A stretch of DNA of 57,222 bases from Halanaerobium saccharolyticum (GTDB lineage Bacteria; Bacillota; Halanaerobiia; Halanaerobiales; Halanaerobiaceae). The stretch covers positions 1 to 57,222 of the forward strand of contig NZ_SNWX01000018.1 in NCBI RefSeq assembly GCF_004362045.1, written 5' to 3'. Below the pieces are notes generated by a model. The model was given only the letters and a program-made list of their open reading frames with translations, was not told the origin of the DNA and ran no database searches. The position numbers and the translations under genes are program-made. Position 1 is the stretch's first letter. Every line of letters starts with the position of its first letter. Shown here one piece after another: positions 95 to 49,285 of this stretch.

Positions 95-178
95 ATTATT
101 GGAAGCAAAGAATTGTCATTTTAACTGGTCACCTATAATAAATGACGAGGAGCTAGTGGTGAAACCGGCCAAATAGGG
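95..178 (+). promoter_or_regulatory. Cyclic-di-GMP-II riboswitch
   Basis: This leader RNA matches the class II c-di-GMP riboswitch in layout. A GGAAGCAAAG block at 101-110 is followed by a TTTTAACTGGTCACC strand at 119-133 and a conserved distal block at 150-170 (GAGCTAGTGGTG then AAACCGGCC). CACC at 130-133 can pair with GGTG at 157-160, and CTGG with CCGG, as in the known pseudoknotted fold. P1 can form from TATTGG (97-102) and CCAAATA (169-175) with one bulge. It ends 33 nt before the curlin start codon. No clear intrinsic terminator follows, so control may be translational. Identification is from memory of the family consensus. Confidence 0.8.
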
Positions 179-211
179 ACAAGCTTTAAATCCAATAAAG
201 GGGGATAAACA

Positions 212-862
212 ATGAGGAAAGCATTAGTGATTTTACTAGCATCTATATTTGTACTGGGAATGACAGCGATGGTTGGTGCTCAGACGAGTGATGTTGATGT
301 TGGACAGAGCGGTGATTATAATAATTTAGATATCTCACATCAACTAAAAGGACTTCCAGGGGTAGCAGATTTGAATGCTAACCAGAGTGGAGATCATAAT
401 AATGCAGATATTCATGCTCATATTCAAACACATGGGTTGTTAGATTTAGAACAGTCTGGTGATTACAATTCTGCAAATATCTGGGCTGGTTGGAGCAGAA
501 ATGTTAATATTCAAGTTGATCAATGGGGAAATAACAACTCTGCATCTGTAAATGTTGGTGGTTCTAACCAAGGTCACTCTACTGTGCTCCAGGGTGGAAA
601 CTGGAATACCGCAGTGATTAATAAAGATGGCTCAAGAGCAACTTGGGCTGAGATAAGACAGACTGGTAATAGAAATTATGCTAATATCCAACAGATAAAT
701 TCTAATGATGCTGTTGGTACAATTAATCAAACTGGTTATAGTAATGAAGCTAGATTATTACAAACTAATGTAAATGGTATGACTGGTACAATGGTAAATA
801 CTTCAATAACTCAAAGTGGAGATCATAATGATGTACTGGTAAACCAGTATTATACTCCATAG
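212..862 (+). CDS. Curlin-repeat secreted protein (CsgA/CsgB-like amyloid subunit)
   Basis: A 216-residue secreted protein with a signal peptide (about 1-23, ending VGA before Gln) and about eight imperfect curlin repeats. Each has the pattern Gln-x-Gly-x-x-Asn-x-Ala-x-[VI], for example QSGDYNNLDI near 32, QSGDHNNADI near 57, QSGDYNSANI near 81, QTGNRNYANI near 150 and QSGDHNDVLV near 200. The regularly spaced Gln and Asn residues form the stacked ladders of the curli beta-helix in known CsgA and CsgB, so the product is likely an extracellular amyloid fibre subunit. It is the only curlin gene here, so major and minor subunit roles cannot be told apart. The ATG follows AAAGGGGG. It lies behind the c-di-GMP-II riboswitch and upstream of csgF and csgG. 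Confidence 0.88.
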   Translation: MRKALVILLASIFVLGMTAMVGAQTSDVDVGQSGDYNNLDISHQLKGLPGVADLNANQSGDHNNADIHAHIQTHGLLDLEQSGDYNSANIWAGWSRNVNIQVDQWGNNNSASVNVGGSNQGHSTVLQGGNWNTAVINKDGSRATWAEIRQTGNRNYANIQQINSNDAVGTINQTGYSNEARLLQTNVNGMTGTMVNTSITQSGDHNDVLVNQYYTP

Positions 863-888
863 AAATTAATAAAAGAAAATGAGTTAGA

Positions 889-917
889 AAGGGTAGCCTG
901 AATTTCAGGTTGCCCTT
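889..917 (+). terminator. Hairpin after the curlin gene (possible attenuator)
   Basis: AAGGGTAGCCTGAA pairs with TTTCAGGTTGCCCTT to form a stable stem 27 bases after the curlin stop codon. The bases that follow (ATCTTCATT) are only moderately T-rich. It may be a weak terminator or an RNA-stabilising hairpin that lets the curlin mRNA accumulate above the downstream secretion genes. Confidence 0.5.
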
Positions 918-1070
918 ATCTTCATTAACTATATTAAAAACAGTATTCATAACTTTTAGACTAACTTTTTATTTTAGATGACTATGAAATTATGTAATAA
1001 ATAAAGCAAATATTTTATTATAATATAAATAAAGAGCTAATTAGTTAGCACATTGAAAGGGGGACAAACA

Positions 1071-1601
1071 ATGATTAAGAAAAAAACAATATTACTAATA
1101 ATTTTAACATTAAGTTTATTATTAGTTTTTACTCCGATTACTATAGCTCAAGATAAAGAAGATGAAGAGTTAGAAGAACGTCTGGAGTTAATCCAGGCTT
1201 CACAAAATTTAATGAAAGAAAAAAGAGTCATTGATCCTAAAACTCATAAATTAGCTGCTGTATTTACAACCTATGGAGAAGGAGATACAGTTATAAATAC
1301 TGGCCTCAGAGTAGCTCCCCAGCTGGCCACACCCGGAGGCATGCCTTTGCGGTTTATGGGAGAACTATTTTACCTGCGTCAGGATGATGAGTTAGCGGGT
1401 TTTCTTTCTTTAACTATTGAACCTACACCCAGCATTTATTTAGGTGCCGGGGGAGAAGTTACTGATACAGCAGATTATCAGGTGTTTGCTGGTTGGAATA
1501 TTACAGAAAATATATTTATAGAAGCAAGAGCCATCAATTCTGGTGGTAGTTTTAGTGACAGTGAGGTGGTACCAGTGGCCGGTTTCCAATTTAGTTTTTA
1601 A
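1071..1601 (+). CDS. Secreted protein of curli locus, probable outer-membrane beta-barrel (YfaZ-like)
   Basis: A 176-residue protein with an N-terminal signal peptide (about 1-26, ending TIA before Gln), a charged Glu/Asp/Lys stretch to about residue 55, then alternating polar/hydrophobic beta-strands with many Gly and aromatic residues. It ends in Phe (GFQFSF), the usual last residue of outer-membrane barrels. I place the start at the ATG eight bases after GGGGG; an in-frame TTG at 1053 lies upstream of that ribosome-binding site and is unlikely. I do not recognise a named family with certainty. YfaZ-like barrels are the nearest match by appearance. Its position between curlin and csgF suggests a role in curli export or anchoring, where other operons have CsgE. 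Confidence 0.7.
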   Translation: MIKKKTILLIILTLSLLLVFTPITIAQDKEDEELEERLELIQASQNLMKEKRVIDPKTHKLAAVFTTYGEGDTVINTGLRVAPQLATPGGMPLRFMGELFYLRQDDELAGFLSLTIEPTPSIYLGAGGEVTDTADYQVFAGWNITENIFIEARAINSGGSFSDSEVVPVAGFQFSF

Positions 1602-1643
1602 TAACTCAATATAACTAAGTATATTATACGGGAGTGATAAATA

Positions 1644-2060
1644 ATGAAAAAAGTATTTATTATTACTATAGCTTTTGTTATAATGCTGGGCTTAACATTT
1701 ACTAATGCTCATGCAAATTATAATATGAGCTGGAATTTTCAAAAGTTTAATAACCCGAATGCAAGACAGGTGGCAAATAATAAGGCAAAAACTCAGGATG
1801 GACTTGTAGAAAGCCAGGAAGATGCGCTAGATCAATTTGCACAAAGTATGGAGCGTAGACTTTATAGTTCCGTTCAGAGTCAAATAATTGATGCAATTGA
1901 AGAAGGTAATATTGGTGATGTAAAGAATTTTCAAGCTGGTGATTTAGATATTTCAGTAACTGAAGCCAATGAAGAAGTCTTTATAGAAATAACTGATACT
2001 ATAACCGGGGAGAGTACTATTGTTACCTATTCTAATAATTGGGGTAATTCATCAAATTAG
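1644..2060 (+). CDS. csgF: CsgF-like curli assembly factor
   Basis: A 138-residue exported protein with a signal peptide (about 1-24, ending AHA before Asn). The mature N-terminus has SWNFQKFNNPNA, which matches the Phe-x-Asn-Pro-Asn segment that plugs CsgG in E. coli CsgF. A helical part (ALDQFAQSMERRL...) and a C-terminal beta part follow, with VTEANEEVFIEITDT and TGESTIVTYS corresponding to the DxxTGxxTxIxV end of CsgF. In the known system CsgF binds the CsgG pore and couples secretion to fibre nucleation at the cell surface. It lies 42 bases after the barrel gene and 28 before csgG, so the three are probably co-transcribed. Confidence 0.8.
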   Translation: MKKVFIITIAFVIMLGLTFTNAHANYNMSWNFQKFNNPNARQVANNKAKTQDGLVESQEDALDQFAQSMERRLYSSVQSQIIDAIEEGNIGDVKNFQAGDLDISVTEANEEVFIEITDTITGESTIVTYSNNWGNSSN

Positions 2061-2088
2061 TAAGCTGTAAATTTGGGAGGATATAGAT

Positions 2089-2862
2089 ATGAAATTAATA
2101 AAAAAGATAAGTATACTATTTCTTTGCCTATTTCTTTTTTTCCCCACTCTTGCACTAGCCCAGGATGTAGAGACTGAATCAAAAAAAGTAATGAATAAGA
2201 TTCTGGCCAATGCCGAGCAGATTAAGTCTGCAGAAAAAAACGTGACAGCGGCTACCCAGCTTTTAGCTTCCCTGCCAGAACCTAAAAAAAAGCCCAGAAT
2301 AGCTATTTATAGTATAGCAGATAAAACCGGGAAAGTAGATGAAGACGGTTCGCGAGTTTTAACTCAGGGAGCTACTGACATGATGATTACTGCCTTAAAA
2401 AGATCACGTCAGTTTAAAGTCCTGGATAGAACAAGGCTTGGAAATTTCATGAATGAACAGCAGCTTAAAAAAGAAGATAGACTTGCTAAGGGTGAAGGAC
2501 CAACGCTTGGTAAACTATCAGGAGCAGATTATATTATTGAGGGAGCTATCACAGAATATCAGGTAGATAAAAAATCAGGGGGCTTTGGACTTACTATTGC
2601 TGGTACCGGGGGAACCAAACAATATGCGGTTGCCAGTACGGCCCTCGATATCAGGTTAGTTGATACGACTACGGGAGAAGTGGTTTGGTCTACCAGTTTA
2701 AAGGATGAAATTAAAGGACAAAAAATTGGTCTGGAATCATTCTCTTTTATGGGTAATAATATAGTTGAATTTGAAACAGGAAAAGGAAAACAGGAAGTGA
2801 TTAATTTAGTTGTGAGGACTATTATAGAAGAGGCTGTGTTTGAATTAGCTCAAACTCTCTAA
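2089..2862 (+). CDS. csgG: CsgG-like curli secretion channel
   Basis: A 257-residue protein with a signal peptide (about 1-24, ending ALA before Gln) and a CsgG domain from about 68 to 255. Recognisable parts are RIAIYSIADKTGKVD, TDMMITALKRSRQFKVLDR, ADYIIEGAITEYQ and the C-terminal strand pair with VRTIIEEAVFELA. CsgG forms the nonameric outer-membrane pore that exports unfolded curlin. E. coli CsgG is a lipoprotein anchored through its first mature Cys; no Cys follows the signal peptide here, so the anchor must differ. An extra region of about 40 residues rich in Lys and Ala precedes the domain. The ribosome-binding site is GGGAGG. Confidence 0.85.
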   Translation: MKLIKKISILFLCLFLFFPTLALAQDVETESKKVMNKILANAEQIKSAEKNVTAATQLLASLPEPKKKPRIAIYSIADKTGKVDEDGSRVLTQGATDMMITALKRSRQFKVLDRTRLGNFMNEQQLKKEDRLAKGEGPTLGKLSGADYIIEGAITEYQVDKKSGGFGLTIAGTGGTKQYAVASTALDIRLVDTTTGEVVWSTSLKDEIKGQKIGLESFSFMGNNIVEFETGKGKQEVINLVVRTIIEEAVFELAQTL

Positions 2863-2910: not shown

Positions 2911-3066
2911 ATGCCTGTCTGGTTAAAATGCAAAAATTGTGGAGCTAAATATTATACAGCCAGGAGTATCAAGAAGGTTGATTCTCCAGTAATCTGTGAT
3001 AAATGTGGAAATTCTCTAACGATAAAGAAGAAAACAGCAAAAAAGTGGGAAGATAAATCCCCTTAA
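2911..3066 (+). CDS. Small zinc-ribbon protein
   Basis: A 51-codon gene starting ATG-Pro-Val-Trp after a GGGTGAT-type ribosome-binding site, 48 bases past csgG. It carries two Cys-x-x-Cys knuckles (CKNCG near 7 and CDKCG near 30) and a Lys-rich tail. This is a four-Cys zinc ribbon of about 25 residues, seen in small nucleic-acid- or protein-binding adaptors. No signal peptide is present, so it is cytoplasmic, unlike its neighbours. The spacing suggests it is the last gene of the curli operon. The function is unknown. Confidence 0.65.
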   Translation: MPVWLKCKNCGAKYYTARSIKKVDSPVICDKCGNSLTIKKKTAKKWEDKSP

Positions 3067-3074
3067 AATATAAC

Positions 3075-3104
3075 TTGACAAAAATTTACTTATCTTGATA
3101 TAAT
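3075..3104 (+). promoter_or_regulatory. Consensus sigma-A promoter
   Basis: TTGACA at 3075-3080 and TATAAT at 3099-3104 are both perfect consensus hexamers with an 18-base spacer. Transcription would start near 3111 and run directly into the c-di-GMP-I riboswitch. Confidence 0.85.
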
Positions 3105-3138
3105 ACAGGTAGATAGAAGGGTTAATAGCTCTTTTTAA

Positions 3139-3207
3139 TAAAGGTAAACTTATCGTGAGGTAGGGACACAAAGCTGAGGATCTCAACTTGAGATAGCCGG
3201 CTGCTAA
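3139..3207 (+). promoter_or_regulatory. Cyclic-di-GMP-I (GEMM) riboswitch
   Basis: The sequence has the GEMM-I blocks in order: AAGGTAAACTT, a GTGA tetraloop hairpin, AGGGACACAAAGC, a second hairpin (GAGGATCTC...GAGATAGCC) and a closing CCGGCTGCT. The GGACxCAAAGC element and the GNRA tetraloop with its distal receptor are diagnostic. The 3' strand of the aptamer is followed within six bases by the AAGGAGG ribosome-binding site of the next gene, and no terminator hairpin is visible, so control is probably translational. Identification is by family consensus recall. Confidence 0.85.
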
Positions 3208-3219
3208 AAGGAGGAAATA

Positions 3220-3738
3220 ATGAAAGTTAAGGTTAGATTTAGTGGTATTATGATTTTTGTCTTTTTGTTTTTGTCTTTAAGTCTTTTAGCTACAGCTGAT
3301 CTGGTTGAGGCGGCTTCTGATCAAGAACAGAAGCTCAAACGGGAAGCCAGAGTTTCAGTAAAGGTCAATATTCCTATTTTTCAGAGACTTGAGATAATCG
3401 AAAAGCCCAATATTAATTATGCATTTTTAATGGATAATTATAATGGCAGTAGAGAAATTGTTTTAGAAGAAGCTCTGACTATTGAAGTTTTAAGTAATGC
3501 TGACTGGCATCTGCGCTTAAATAATAGAAATTTAAATTCTCATGCTATGATCAGAAAAAGCGGCCAGAGTGATTCCGAATGGCAGAATTTAAATTCTACT
3601 ACAGCTAAATTTAATGGAGAAAATGGTGAGCAGAGAATAACTTTTGATCTGAAATTTATTCTGGACCAGAGCTCCAGAGCTGCAGTTAATAATCTGGCTC
3701 TTGATTTAAGACACAGCCTTGCTCCGGAATTATATTAA
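3220..3738 (+). CDS. Secreted beta-rich protein under c-di-GMP-I riboswitch control
   Basis: A 172-residue protein with a clear signal peptide (about 1-31, ending VEA before Ala). The mature part is predicted mostly beta, with strands such as VSVKVNIPI, LEIIEKP, EIVLEEALTIEVLS and QRITFDLKFIL. There are no Cys residues, catalytic motifs or sortase signal. The layout resembles small surface or fimbria-like beta-sandwich domains, but I do not recognise the family. The regulatory context is the best clue: a consensus promoter and c-di-GMP-I riboswitch, directly after a curli operon with its own c-di-GMP riboswitch. I infer a biofilm-matrix or surface-adhesion role. Confidence 0.8.
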   Translation: MKVKVRFSGIMIFVFLFLSLSLLATADLVEAASDQEQKLKREARVSVKVNIPIFQRLEIIEKPNINYAFLMDNYNGSREIVLEEALTIEVLSNADWHLRLNNRNLNSHAMIRKSGQSDSEWQNLNSTTAKFNGENGEQRITFDLKFILDQSSRAAVNNLALDLRHSLAPELY

Positions 3739-3793: not shown

Positions 3794-4003
3794 GTTTTTA
3801 AGCTTATCTAAAAGGCTGCTGACTCTTTTTTCGGCAGCCTTTTTTTCATCTTCTTTAAGTTCAAAATTAATTTCTAAAATACTGCCTTCTGCTGTCTTAG
3901 CTGGAAGTTCTTCAACAGGCAGCAAAAAATTTATCTTTTCCTGAGGTCTAATTAAAAGTTTGGCCTTTCCATTTTCAATTTTATCAACTGTTACCTTCAT
4001 CAA
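3782..4003 (-). CDS. DUF3006-family small protein
   Basis: A 73-residue protein of the DUF3006 type, recognisable from VDKIENGKAKLLIRPQE at the start, the central LPVEELP and ILEINFELKED, and a Lys-rich C-terminal helix ending LLDKLKNKK. Family members commonly sit beside ComEC/Rec2-like metallo-beta-lactamase proteins, as here, where the upstream gene encodes one. The biochemical role is unknown. Two adjacent ATG codons follow the ribosome-binding site; the second (starting at 4000) has better spacing. It is probably co-transcribed with the upstream gene across a 54-base gap that holds a GGTACC repeat. Confidence 0.75.
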   Translation of the reverse strand: MMKVTVDKIENGKAKLLIRPQEKINFLLPVEELPAKTAEGSILEINFELKEDEKKAAEKRVSSLLDKLKNKKS

Positions 4004-4057: not shown

Positions 4058-5194
4058 TCATTTTACTGTAATTTTATCATACCAGCGTCCAAATTTACCA
4101 TCATCAATTCCATCAACTTTTTTTATTTCTTCAATTTGGCTAAAAAGTCCATTTTTCTGGCGGTAGTTTATAATTTTTTTGGCAGTTGCTGGTCCGATGC
4201 CCCAGAGTTGGTCTAAAACTGCAGCACTGGCAGTATTAATATTAATTAAATTGCTGCCTTTATCAGCCTTATTTTTGGATTCTGAATTTATTTTCTCTGC
4301 GGAAGTGTTTTCAGTTTCAGTACTGGTTTTTGTGCCGGACTTGCTATTATCTGCACTTTGATCAATTTTTACAGTATAATTTCTGCCGTCAGCGGTAACT
4401 ACAATATTACCATTTAAATCATTTCTGAAAACTCGGGCCCCCTGTTCTTGATAAAGTGCTATAACCTCAGCTGCAGGGTGGCCGTAATGATTTTCTCCGA
4501 CCTGAATTACTGCAGTTTCTGGTTGAATACTTTTTATCCAGCCGGCAAAACTGGAAGTACTACTTCCGTGATGGGGCACCTTAATTAAATCAACTTTGAG
4601 TTCGGGATTTTCGGCAAGCAGTTTTCTTTCTACTTCTGCTTCAATATCTCCGGTAAATAAAAAATTCTGCTGCCCAAATTTAAGCAGAAAGACCAGAGAA
4701 GAATTATTTAAATCATAATCATCTAAATTCTGATCAGGATGTAAAAAGTGGAGTTCACTCTCTCCGATTTTAAATTTGTCACCCCGGCGGGGAGTTTCAA
4801 AATTAATATTTTCCTGATCGATTTTGATTAAATAATTCTCATAGGTTTTAGAGGTATGGACTTTACCGCTGTCCAGCACAGTTCCAACTTTAAAACTGTC
4901 GATAATGTCTACCAATCCTCCAATATGGTCAGCATGAGGATGGGTGCTGATCAGATAATCCAGTTTTTTTAGATTTTGATCCCTGAGATAATTTATTATT
5001 CTGGCTGTAATTCTGTCTGCACGGTCACCACCATCTACCAGAATATTTTGTCCTCCGGCTTCTTCAATCAAAATTGAATCTCCCTGTCCCACATCAATAA
5101 AATGAATTTTTAAATTCTGGGCAGTAGTAGTCAAGCTAAAAATAAAGACTAGGGAAAGAAGCAGTAAAAATAAGGCCAATTTATTTTTATTCAT
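4058..5194 (-). CDS. Secreted ComEC/Rec2-like metallo-beta-lactamase with C-terminal helix-hairpin-helix
   Basis: A 378-residue protein with a signal peptide (about 1-25, ending TTA before Gln). A metallo-beta-lactamase domain follows (about 28-270) with LKIHFIDVGQGDSILIE, the metal site THPHADHIGG, FTGDIE and VPHHGSSTS. This is the form found free and as the C-terminal domain of ComEC. A low-complexity Ser/Asn/Lys linker (about 280-315) leads to a ComEA-like helix-hairpin-helix domain (INTASAAVLDQLWGIGPATA...). The pair implies a secreted DNA-binding nuclease, perhaps for DNA uptake, extracellular DNA degradation or biofilm remodelling. No ComEC membrane channel is present. DUF3006 follows. 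Confidence 0.85.
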   Translation of the reverse strand: MNKNKLALFLLLLSLVFIFSLTTTAQNLKIHFIDVGQGDSILIEEAGGQNILVDGGDRADRITARIINYLRDQNLKKLDYLISTHPHADHIGGLVDIIDSFKVGTVLDSGKVHTSKTYENYLIKIDQENINFETPRRGDKFKIGESELHFLHPDQNLDDYDLNNSSLVFLLKFGQQNFLFTGDIEAEVERKLLAENPELKVDLIKVPHHGSSTSSFAGWIKSIQPETAVIQVGENHYGHPAAEVIALYQEQGARVFRNDLNGNIVVTADGRNYTVKIDQSADNSKSGTKTSTETENTSAEKINSESKNKADKGSNLININTASAAVLDQLWGIGPATAKKIINYRQKNGLFSQIEEIKKVDGIDDGKFGRWYDKITVK

Positions 5195-31485: not shown

Positions 31486-32397
31486 ATGAACAGTGATAAA
31501 ACTATTTTAATAGTTGATGACAGCAAATTGAATATTCAGGTCTTAAGTGATATATTAAAAGAAAAGTCATACAGGATTGCTTTAGCCAGAAGTGGAATAA
31601 TGGCTTTAGAATTTGTGAATATGAAAAAACCTGACCTGATACTGCTCGATATCATGATGCCCGAAATTGATGGTTTTGAAGTCTGCCGCCGTTTAAAGGC
31701 TGATCCGGAAACTAAAGGTATTCCAATTATTTTTATCAGCGGTCTGGATAAAAGTGAGGATATTGTTAAGGGTTTTAAGGCGGGAGCAGTTGATTATATA
31801 GTTAAACCTTTTCAAAAAGAAGTTGTTCTGGCGAGGGTTAATACTCATTTAAAACTTAATGAGACCCAGAGAAAGCTCGAAAAAACCAATGCTGAGCTAA
31901 AAGAATTGCTGAATGAAGTCGAGTATTTATCCTTCCATGATGAAATGACAGGATTATATAACAGAAGATATTTTGAGAATGAACTTGGCAGACTATCTAC
32001 TTCACGCCGAATCCCGATTACTCTGATGGTGGCTGATATGGACAAATTGAAACTTATTAATGATAATTATGGTCATAAGATGGGAGATCAGTACATTAAG
32101 GGGACAGCAGAAGTTTTAAAAGAGTCAGGCCGGGATGAAGATATAGCTGCCAGAATTGGTGGAGATGAGTTTGCAATTATTCTGCCGGAAACAGGTTTTG
32201 AGGCTGCTGATAAGATCTATCAGCGGATTAAAACTAATTTGAGGAAATATAATCAGCAGCAGGAGCTGGTAGAACCGCTCAAGTTGTCCCTTGGATTTGC
32301 TGTTAAAACAAAAAAAGAGCAGAATCTTGATCAGGTATTTAAAAAAGCGGATAAAATAATGTATAATAATAAAAGAAAAAAGATTTATTATGACTGA
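31486..32397 (+). CDS. Response regulator diguanylate cyclase (REC-GGDEF, PleD-like)
   Basis: A 303-residue protein. The receiver domain (1-125) has the acidic pair D11-D12, phospho-acceptor D55 in LLDIMMPE, and Lys in VKPF near 108. A short coiled coil leads to a GGDEF domain (about 150-300) with the intact active site RIGGDEFAIILPE (GGDEF 225-229). The inhibitory I-site RDED is at 216-219, exactly five residues upstream. It should make cyclic di-GMP when phosphorylated and be product-inhibited. Two c-di-GMP riboswitches lie at the start of this window. No histidine kinase is adjacent. Confidence 0.92.
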   Translation: MNSDKTILIVDDSKLNIQVLSDILKEKSYRIALARSGIMALEFVNMKKPDLILLDIMMPEIDGFEVCRRLKADPETKGIPIIFISGLDKSEDIVKGFKAGAVDYIVKPFQKEVVLARVNTHLKLNETQRKLEKTNAELKELLNEVEYLSFHDEMTGLYNRRYFENELGRLSTSRRIPITLMVADMDKLKLINDNYGHKMGDQYIKGTAEVLKESGRDEDIAARIGGDEFAIILPETGFEAADKIYQRIKTNLRKYNQQQELVEPLKLSLGFAVKTKKEQNLDQVFKKADKIMYNNKRKKIYYD

Positions 32398-48424: not shown

Positions 48425-48471
48425 ACAGCTAGATAGAGATTTCGATATGACTAGATTTAAAAAAATTAAAG

Positions 48472-48555
48472 ACTGGGGAGCCAAACTGGAGGCTGAGAGG
48501 ATGAGCAATCATCGACCCATTAACCTGAACCTGGTAATGCAGGCGTAGGTAGGCG
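48472..48555 (+). promoter_or_regulatory. TPP riboswitch upstream of thiT
   Basis: The THI-box pattern is present: CTGGGGAGCC, then GGCTGAGAGGATG, then ACCCATTAACCTGAACCTGGTAATGCAGGCGTAGG in order, i.e. the P2/P3 core with CTGAGA and the P4/P5 block with ACCTGA and the TAATGC turn. TPP binding should promote the downstream hairpin. Confidence 0.95.
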
Positions 48556-48568
48556 ATATAAAGACATT

Positions 48569-49142: not shown

Positions 49143-49164
49143 TGCAATCGATACAATTAAATAT

Positions 49165-49247
49165 TTACAGGGGAGCCTTACGGCTGAGAGAAAGCAGATG
49201 CTTTGACCCTCAGGACCTGATCTGGATAATACCAGCGAAGGGAGTTG
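49165..49247 (+). promoter_or_regulatory. TPP riboswitch upstream of thiC operon
   Basis: ACAGGGGAGCCTTACGGCTG, the CTGAGAGAAAG block, GACCCTCAGGACCTGATCTG, GATAATACCAGCGAAGGGAG follow each other as in the THI-box consensus. This second copy governs the biosynthesis genes. Confidence 0.96.
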
Positions 49248-49285
49248 TGCAGCAGTGATTATTTTAATAATTGCTTAAGTTATTA

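Follow-up and report, generated by a model that had tools for sequence, protein, structure and literature searches.

A predicted class II cyclic-di-GMP riboswitch ahead of the curlin gene of Halanaerobium saccharolyticum recurs across related Bacillota

The RNA leader of a curli-type operon in Halanaerobium saccharolyticum carries a class II cyclic-di-GMP (c-di-GMP) aptamer directly ahead of the curlin gene and, beside the Shine-Dalgarno sequence of that gene, a segment able to pair with one strand of the aptamer's P1 helix. Both elements recur in front of curlin genes of related bacteria, and together they point to a translational riboswitch that probably turns curlin synthesis on as c-di-GMP rises. 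The window, that is, the whole stretch of DNA analysed, comprised 57,222 nt (assembly GCF_004362045.1, contig NZ_SNWX01000018.1, positions 1 to 57,222 of the forward strand) and was searched throughout with Infernal and Rfam. The elements of the leader are the following:

93-179, + strand: class II c-di-GMP riboswitch aptamer (RF01786), full length, 63.0 bits, E 9.7e-12
96-102, + strand: shared strand UUAUUGG, which would pair with the P1 3' strand (bound form) or with 192-198 (free form)
191-198, + strand: P1-mimic segment UCCAAUAA, forming an 8-bp helix with the P1 5' strand and abutting the Shine-Dalgarno sequence
199-204, + strand: Shine-Dalgarno sequence AGGGGG of the curlin gene, whose start codon is at 212

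An earlier note, made from the sequence of this DNA, had proposed a c-di-GMP-II aptamer ahead of the curlin gene and named the lack of a significant covariance-model match as evidence to the contrary; the match obtained lies above the gathering score of RF01786 (53.5). The P1 5' strand occupies about 94-102 and the P1 3' strand 169-177, and the RF01786 alignment showed a pseudoknot between CACC (130-133) and GGUG (158-161). According to an alignment of 15 aptamers, every invariant core position is kept. The c-di-GMP-II-GAG variant was rejected as the identity of this RNA, since it scored 49.2 bits. The aptamer ends 32 nt before the start codon, in the 5' untranslated region (UTR) position of a gene whose function is tied to c-di-GMP physiology. 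On these sequence features, the leader of the curlin gene is predicted to be a c-di-GMP-II riboswitch that would bind c-di-GMP. The H. saccharolyticum genome has 31 GGDEF domain matches; a GGDEF (diguanylate cyclase) domain is also encoded on the operon's own contig, at 31933-32382 of the window.

Comparison of 17 leaders, 13 of curlin genes and four of other genes, revealed that a second P1-like segment, complementary to the P1 5' strand and located beside the Shine-Dalgarno sequence, is present in every intact full-length curlin leader. The P1 3' strand and this segment compete, because both pair with the P1 5' strand. The competing helix has eight contiguous pairs in 11 of the 13 full-length curlin leaders and seven in the other two, and in L033, L055, and L057 (L numbers denote loci from a scan of genome contigs) it extends well into the Shine-Dalgarno sequence. 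Across the alignment, 94.1% of its cells are paired and ten cells are changed on both sides, as in the compensated pairs UUAUUGG/CCAAUAA, CUCUUUGG/CCAAAGAG, CUCAUUGG/CCAAUGAG, and CUUAUUGG/CCAAUAAG. The covariation score of 0.252 (shuffle mean 0.096) was reached by none of 500 shuffles, and every slid register of the helix scored lower. P1 itself is less conserved, with 72.6% of cells paired, mostly in the inner four to five pairs. The ligand-free blocked form was favoured by 2-7 kcal/mol in 16 of the 17 leaders, as a ligand-driven switch requires.

The same arrangement was found repeatedly in relatives. A survey of 59 genomes of the class (G numbers) yielded about 95 c-di-GMP-II matches, and in ten places such a match stands directly ahead of a curlin start, namely in the window, in G000 C9, G026, G034, and G012, twice in G020, and three times in G056. 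Random placement would give about 0.001 such cases, rising to 0.01 if a tenfold bias towards intergenic positions is allowed for. The contig scan, whose loci come from Halanaerobium kushneri, H. saccharolyticum, H. polyolivorans, Halanaerobacter jeridensis, and metagenome-assembled genomes (MAGs), added L079, L082, L084, L098, L099, and L072, the last one cut by the contig end. In total, a class II aptamer directly ahead of a curlin gene was seen at 16 or more places, spread over Halanaerobiales and digester Bacillota MAGs. The earlier note had suggested a search for the same gene order in Halanaerobiales; the order does recur there, with this RNA preceding the curlin gene. In H. jeridensis (L046), which has four curlin genes in tandem, three of them are each preceded by a separate c-di-GMP-II aptamer (2929-3016, 3818-3905, and 4709-4796). 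A further match at L076 2014-2094 and a core-like one in L066 were judged to be due to chance. Curli operons of Halanaerobiales type are also present on the contigs of L065 and L072, which bear the labels Elusimicrobia and Nitriliruptoria and are probably mis-binned MAG contigs. Class II aptamers were also seen ahead of genes for homologous secreted proteins other than curlins (L041 4563-4648 and L057 2357-2442, one of them just downstream of a curli operon). In the same clade, genes of type IV pilin-like proteins are preceded by a class II aptamer accompanied by a terminator-like element (L054 2391-2478 and L058 1808-1896).

Some curli loci have a degraded RNA or none. Decayed aptamer copies were found ahead of the first tandem curlin gene of H. 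jeridensis (L046 2037-2121), in G006 (L035 12607-12692, 40 bits with a model built in this analysis), and ahead of the G032 curlin, where the copy was recognised by eye. In a CsgG tree, which was obtained by a quick search and has many weak inner branches, the five loci in which no trace of the RNA is left, all from Halanaerobium, formed a single clade with a Shimodaira-Hasegawa-like approximate likelihood ratio test (SH-aLRT) value of 100. The simplest reading is that an ancestral riboswitch was lost once in this clade and has decayed at a few places outside it. In four of these loci (L034, L040, L042, and L045), a gene for a BTAD-type regulator lies just before the curlin genes; in the fifth, L041, the contig end cuts the region upstream of them. 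The BTAD assignment was confirmed by Pfam (PF03704) for L042 and also for the riboswitch-bearing locus L033. The regulator gene is a candidate protein replacement for the RNA in the four loci.

The operon downstream of the leader comprises the following elements:

212-862, + strand: curlin-repeat amyloid subunit, CsgA/B-like (Curlin_rpt PF07012, E 1.9e-12)
889-917, + strand: intercistronic hairpin of 13 bp after the curlin gene
1071-1601, + strand: unnamed gene for a secreted protein, predicted to be a small beta barrel, between curlin and csgF (no Pfam or NCBIfam match)
1644-2060, + strand: csgF (PF10614, E 8.7e-12)
2089-2862, + strand: csgG, outer-membrane secretion channel (PF03783, E 1.7e-44)

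These Pfam assignments bear out the operon of curlin, csgF, and csgG described in the earlier note, to which the gene at 1071-1601, unnamed there, has to be added. The curlin product is predicted to have 216 amino acids, with a signal peptide and eight QxGxxN motifs, and its AlphaFold2 model showed sixteen short strands in a repetitive all-beta fold (predicted local distance difference test, pLDDT, 84). The CsgG family profile matched solved CsgG in the PDB with an E of 4.5e-30, while the match of the CsgF profile to solved CsgF chains was weak (best E 0.0018). CsgF and curlin repeats co-occur in the same 12 of the 59 class genomes, and CsgE was found in none of the 59. An Omp85 gene is present in the H. 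saccharolyticum genome, as expected for a diderm organism, and no close copy of the locus was found on plasmids. The AlphaFold2 model of the 1071-1601 product consists of an N-terminal helix and an 8-strand beta barrel (pLDDT 88). Homologues occur in nearly all curli loci examined, and the C-terminal residue of every member is aromatic, Phe in the window, mostly following G(F/Y/L)(Q/K)(L/F/I/M). No family for it was found in Pfam or NCBIfam, nor a relative in the PDB by sequence, and Foldseek with the model gave weak, mixed matches to lipocalins, OmpA, and PagL. The C-terminal motif and the predicted fold would fit a small outer-membrane barrel, which could possibly stand in for missing csg parts. 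The stretch 886-935, containing the intercistronic hairpin, folds at -21.4 kcal/mol (z -5.8), and nearly all other loci examined likewise have a hairpin behind the curlin gene, at about -16 to -25 kcal/mol. The hairpin may act as an attenuator or mRNA stabiliser that holds the subunit level above the channel level; the weak U tract in the window makes this role tentative.

Taken together, these results suggest the following mechanism. When c-di-GMP is absent, the P1 5' strand (96-102) would pair with 191-198, touching the Shine-Dalgarno sequence, and the ribosome site would be blocked; when c-di-GMP is bound, the aptamer would keep the shared strand in P1 and the pseudoknot, so that the segment by the Shine-Dalgarno sequence would be single-stranded and curlin translated. 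The subunit would then be exported by CsgG with CsgF, without CsgE, to form curli-like fibres, and the strong hairpin behind the curlin gene would probably lower the level of the secretion genes relative to the subunit. The add adenine riboswitch is likewise a translational ON switch, in which the ligand stabilises P1 and the ribosome site is released; its aptamer and ligand are unrelated to those described here, where the shared strand is the P1 5' strand. We consider this explanation as a whole, from a translational ON riboswitch to exported curli-like fibres, to be probable.

Several observations weigh against the proposed polarity, and they are the reason why ON control of the curlin leader is regarded as likely rather than settled. 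In the window, the competing helix only abuts the Shine-Dalgarno sequence and ends where the latter begins. ViennaRNA calculations, in which pseudoknot and ligand are left out, gave an openness of the Shine-Dalgarno sequence in the window of 0.88 in the 'blocked' form and 0.63 in the 'aptamer' form, and the sign of the change in accessibility was mixed across leaders. A small hairpin, AUCC/GGAU, could cover part of the Shine-Dalgarno sequence in the bound form, and since the leaders are related, the covarying cells go back to no more than a handful of independent changes. The same riboswitch might thus act as an OFF switch, with the bound form freeing UCC to pair with GGA of the Shine-Dalgarno sequence and the free form leaving it open, as the sign of the accessibility computed for the window would have it. 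In the leader alignment, the UCC/GGA hairpin is possible in the window, in both G020 leaders (G020a and G020b), and in G026, and the window leader alone folds at -2.8 kcal/mol. However, this is a minority of leaders, whereas a helix at or over the Shine-Dalgarno sequence is found in all intact curlin leaders and reaches well into it in the three loci mentioned above. High c-di-GMP usually promotes matrix production, which also counts against OFF control, and we regard this polarity as unlikely.

The remaining explanations are less probable still. One is that the window aptamer has decayed or been re-tuned and has lost c-di-GMP sensing at this locus. In its favour, decayed copies are found at close evolutionary range, in L035 and L046, where P1-like ends are retained but core bases have been lost. 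Against it, the window aptamer scores 63.0 bits, keeps all invariant core positions of the alignment, and fits the canonical model better than the GAG variant, so that this reading is improbable. Control by transcription termination instead of translation was considered because other c-di-GMP-II RNAs of the clade, those of L053, L054, L056, and L058, have a terminator-like GGUUU(UU) segment 3' of the aptamer. In these RNAs a CGGUUU segment could pair with the aptamer's AACCGRCC, and a bound aptamer should prevent the terminator, which would again mean ON control. In the window, however, the stretch from the aptamer to the start codon contains no terminator-like site, which makes translation the plausible level of control, and in curlin leaders this stretch measures only about 25-32 nt; termination is very improbable for the curlin gene. 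Equally slight is the chance that the cluster of CsgG, CsgF, and repeat protein exports something other than a curli-type amyloid. The absence of CsgE from the whole class and the existence of CsgG-family genes outside curli systems would fit such a role, but curlin repeats and CsgF occur in identical genomes, adjoining CsgG, and csgE-less systems, one Firmicute included, are already accepted (Dueholm et al., 2012; PMC3521004).

The curli operon is flanked by both c-di-GMP riboswitch classes, as a class I aptamer, overlooked in the earlier note, follows csgG after a small zinc-ribbon gene:

3075-3104, + strand: perfect sigma-70-type promoter of the next unit, TTGACA-18 nt-TATAAT (12/12 matches)
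3133-3208, + strand: class I c-di-GMP riboswitch aptamer (RF01051, 55.4 bits, gathering score 35)
3220-3738, + strand: gene under the class I riboswitch, encoding a secreted product of unknown family (nothing in Pfam above the cut-off)

In L051 and L052, a homologue of the 3220-3738 product is likewise preceded by a c-di-GMP-I aptamer and has a solitary short curlin gene as its neighbour. Class I aptamers also directly precede curlin genes in L077 (1237-1314), L078 (5796-5875), L079 (8151-8228), L081 (2278-2355), L083 (1216-1452), and L044 (6618-6855), which belong to digester Bacillota MAGs and one Halanaerobiales MAG; some of these RNAs are best matched by the c-di-GMP-I-GGC variant, and two loci have a tandem pair. 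L044 and L079 contain both classes, and there class II could turn the main curlin ON and class I a second curlin OFF, resulting in a swap of subunits, a proposal that we consider doubtful. Under it, the class I P1 extension may run into the Shine-Dalgarno sequence and close it as c-di-GMP rises, and the class I RNA of the window would likewise turn OFF the secreted protein. The class I leaders hint weakly at such OFF polarity; complementarity between an upstream pyrimidine tract and the Shine-Dalgarno sequence was not significant in most of them. The Rfam scan also detected two thiamine pyrophosphate (TPP) riboswitches on the same strand about 600 nt apart (48464-48568 and 49159-49260) and a molybdenum cofactor riboswitch close to the contig end (56671-56789).

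The curli systems listed by Dueholm et al. (2012; PMC3521004) include one Firmicute, without csgC, csgD, and csgE, which has been named as Halanaerobium (PMC4551309). The locus described here shares the genus and the absence of csgE; that account has no mention of c-di-GMP (PMC3521004; PMC4551309), and some Halanaerobium loci, unlike the window, lack the riboswitch and adjoin the BTAD regulator gene. Curli operons of diderm Firmicutes are little described, as the earlier note stated, but not undescribed (PMC3521004; PMC4551309; parts of PMC9481103). In the passages of Sherlock et al. (2022; PMC9481103) drawn on here, glycine/c-di-GMP-I tandem riboswitches precede curlin or CsgG genes in two of six cases and are predicted to be ON switches. 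They likewise tie a c-di-GMP riboswitch to curlin secretion or subunit genes, but with class I and glycine aptamers instead of class II; the same passages offer neither a phylogeny nor any class II riboswitch close to curlin genes, and the tandem c-di-GMP-II riboswitches in them mostly precede genes for putative surface anchor proteins. Oleidesulfovibrio (PMC11124144) was rejected as a precedent, since its single c-di-GMP-I precedes norR and not curli. Compared to other RF01786 riboswitches, among which an allosteric example of Clostridioides difficile drives a group I ribozyme, the aptamer core, pseudoknot, and 5' UTR position are the same. What differs is the controlled gene, here that of a curlin amyloid subunit, and the platform, which consists of a second P1-like strand next to the Shine-Dalgarno sequence. 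Enterobacteriaceae curli (csgBAC/csgDEFG) have in common the curlin repeats, the CsgG channel, CsgF, and promotion of production by c-di-GMP, which there runs via the transcription factor CsgD (passages of PMC9481103); the Halanaerobium operon differs by the lack of CsgE, an extra barrel gene, and predicted direct RNA sensing at the subunit gene. In the open-licence literature, no paper was found connecting class II riboswitches with curlin genes or reporting such a platform. The aptamer class and the fibre were thus known, their joining recurs across a group, and class II control of curlin, its platform, and its spread appear new.

The covariance-model match and the recurring gene order support the one-step route from c-di-GMP to amyloid suggested in the earlier note, with a polarity predicted from the leader. 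If true, an amyloid subunit under direct RNA control would bypass a CsgD-type relay, and matrix production would become a one-step response to c-di-GMP. The recurrence in Halanaerobiales and other Bacillota, with one putative replacement by a regulator gene, would allow RNA control and protein control of the same fibre to be compared in nature, and the conserved unnamed barrel gene may provide leads on a curli system that works without csgE.

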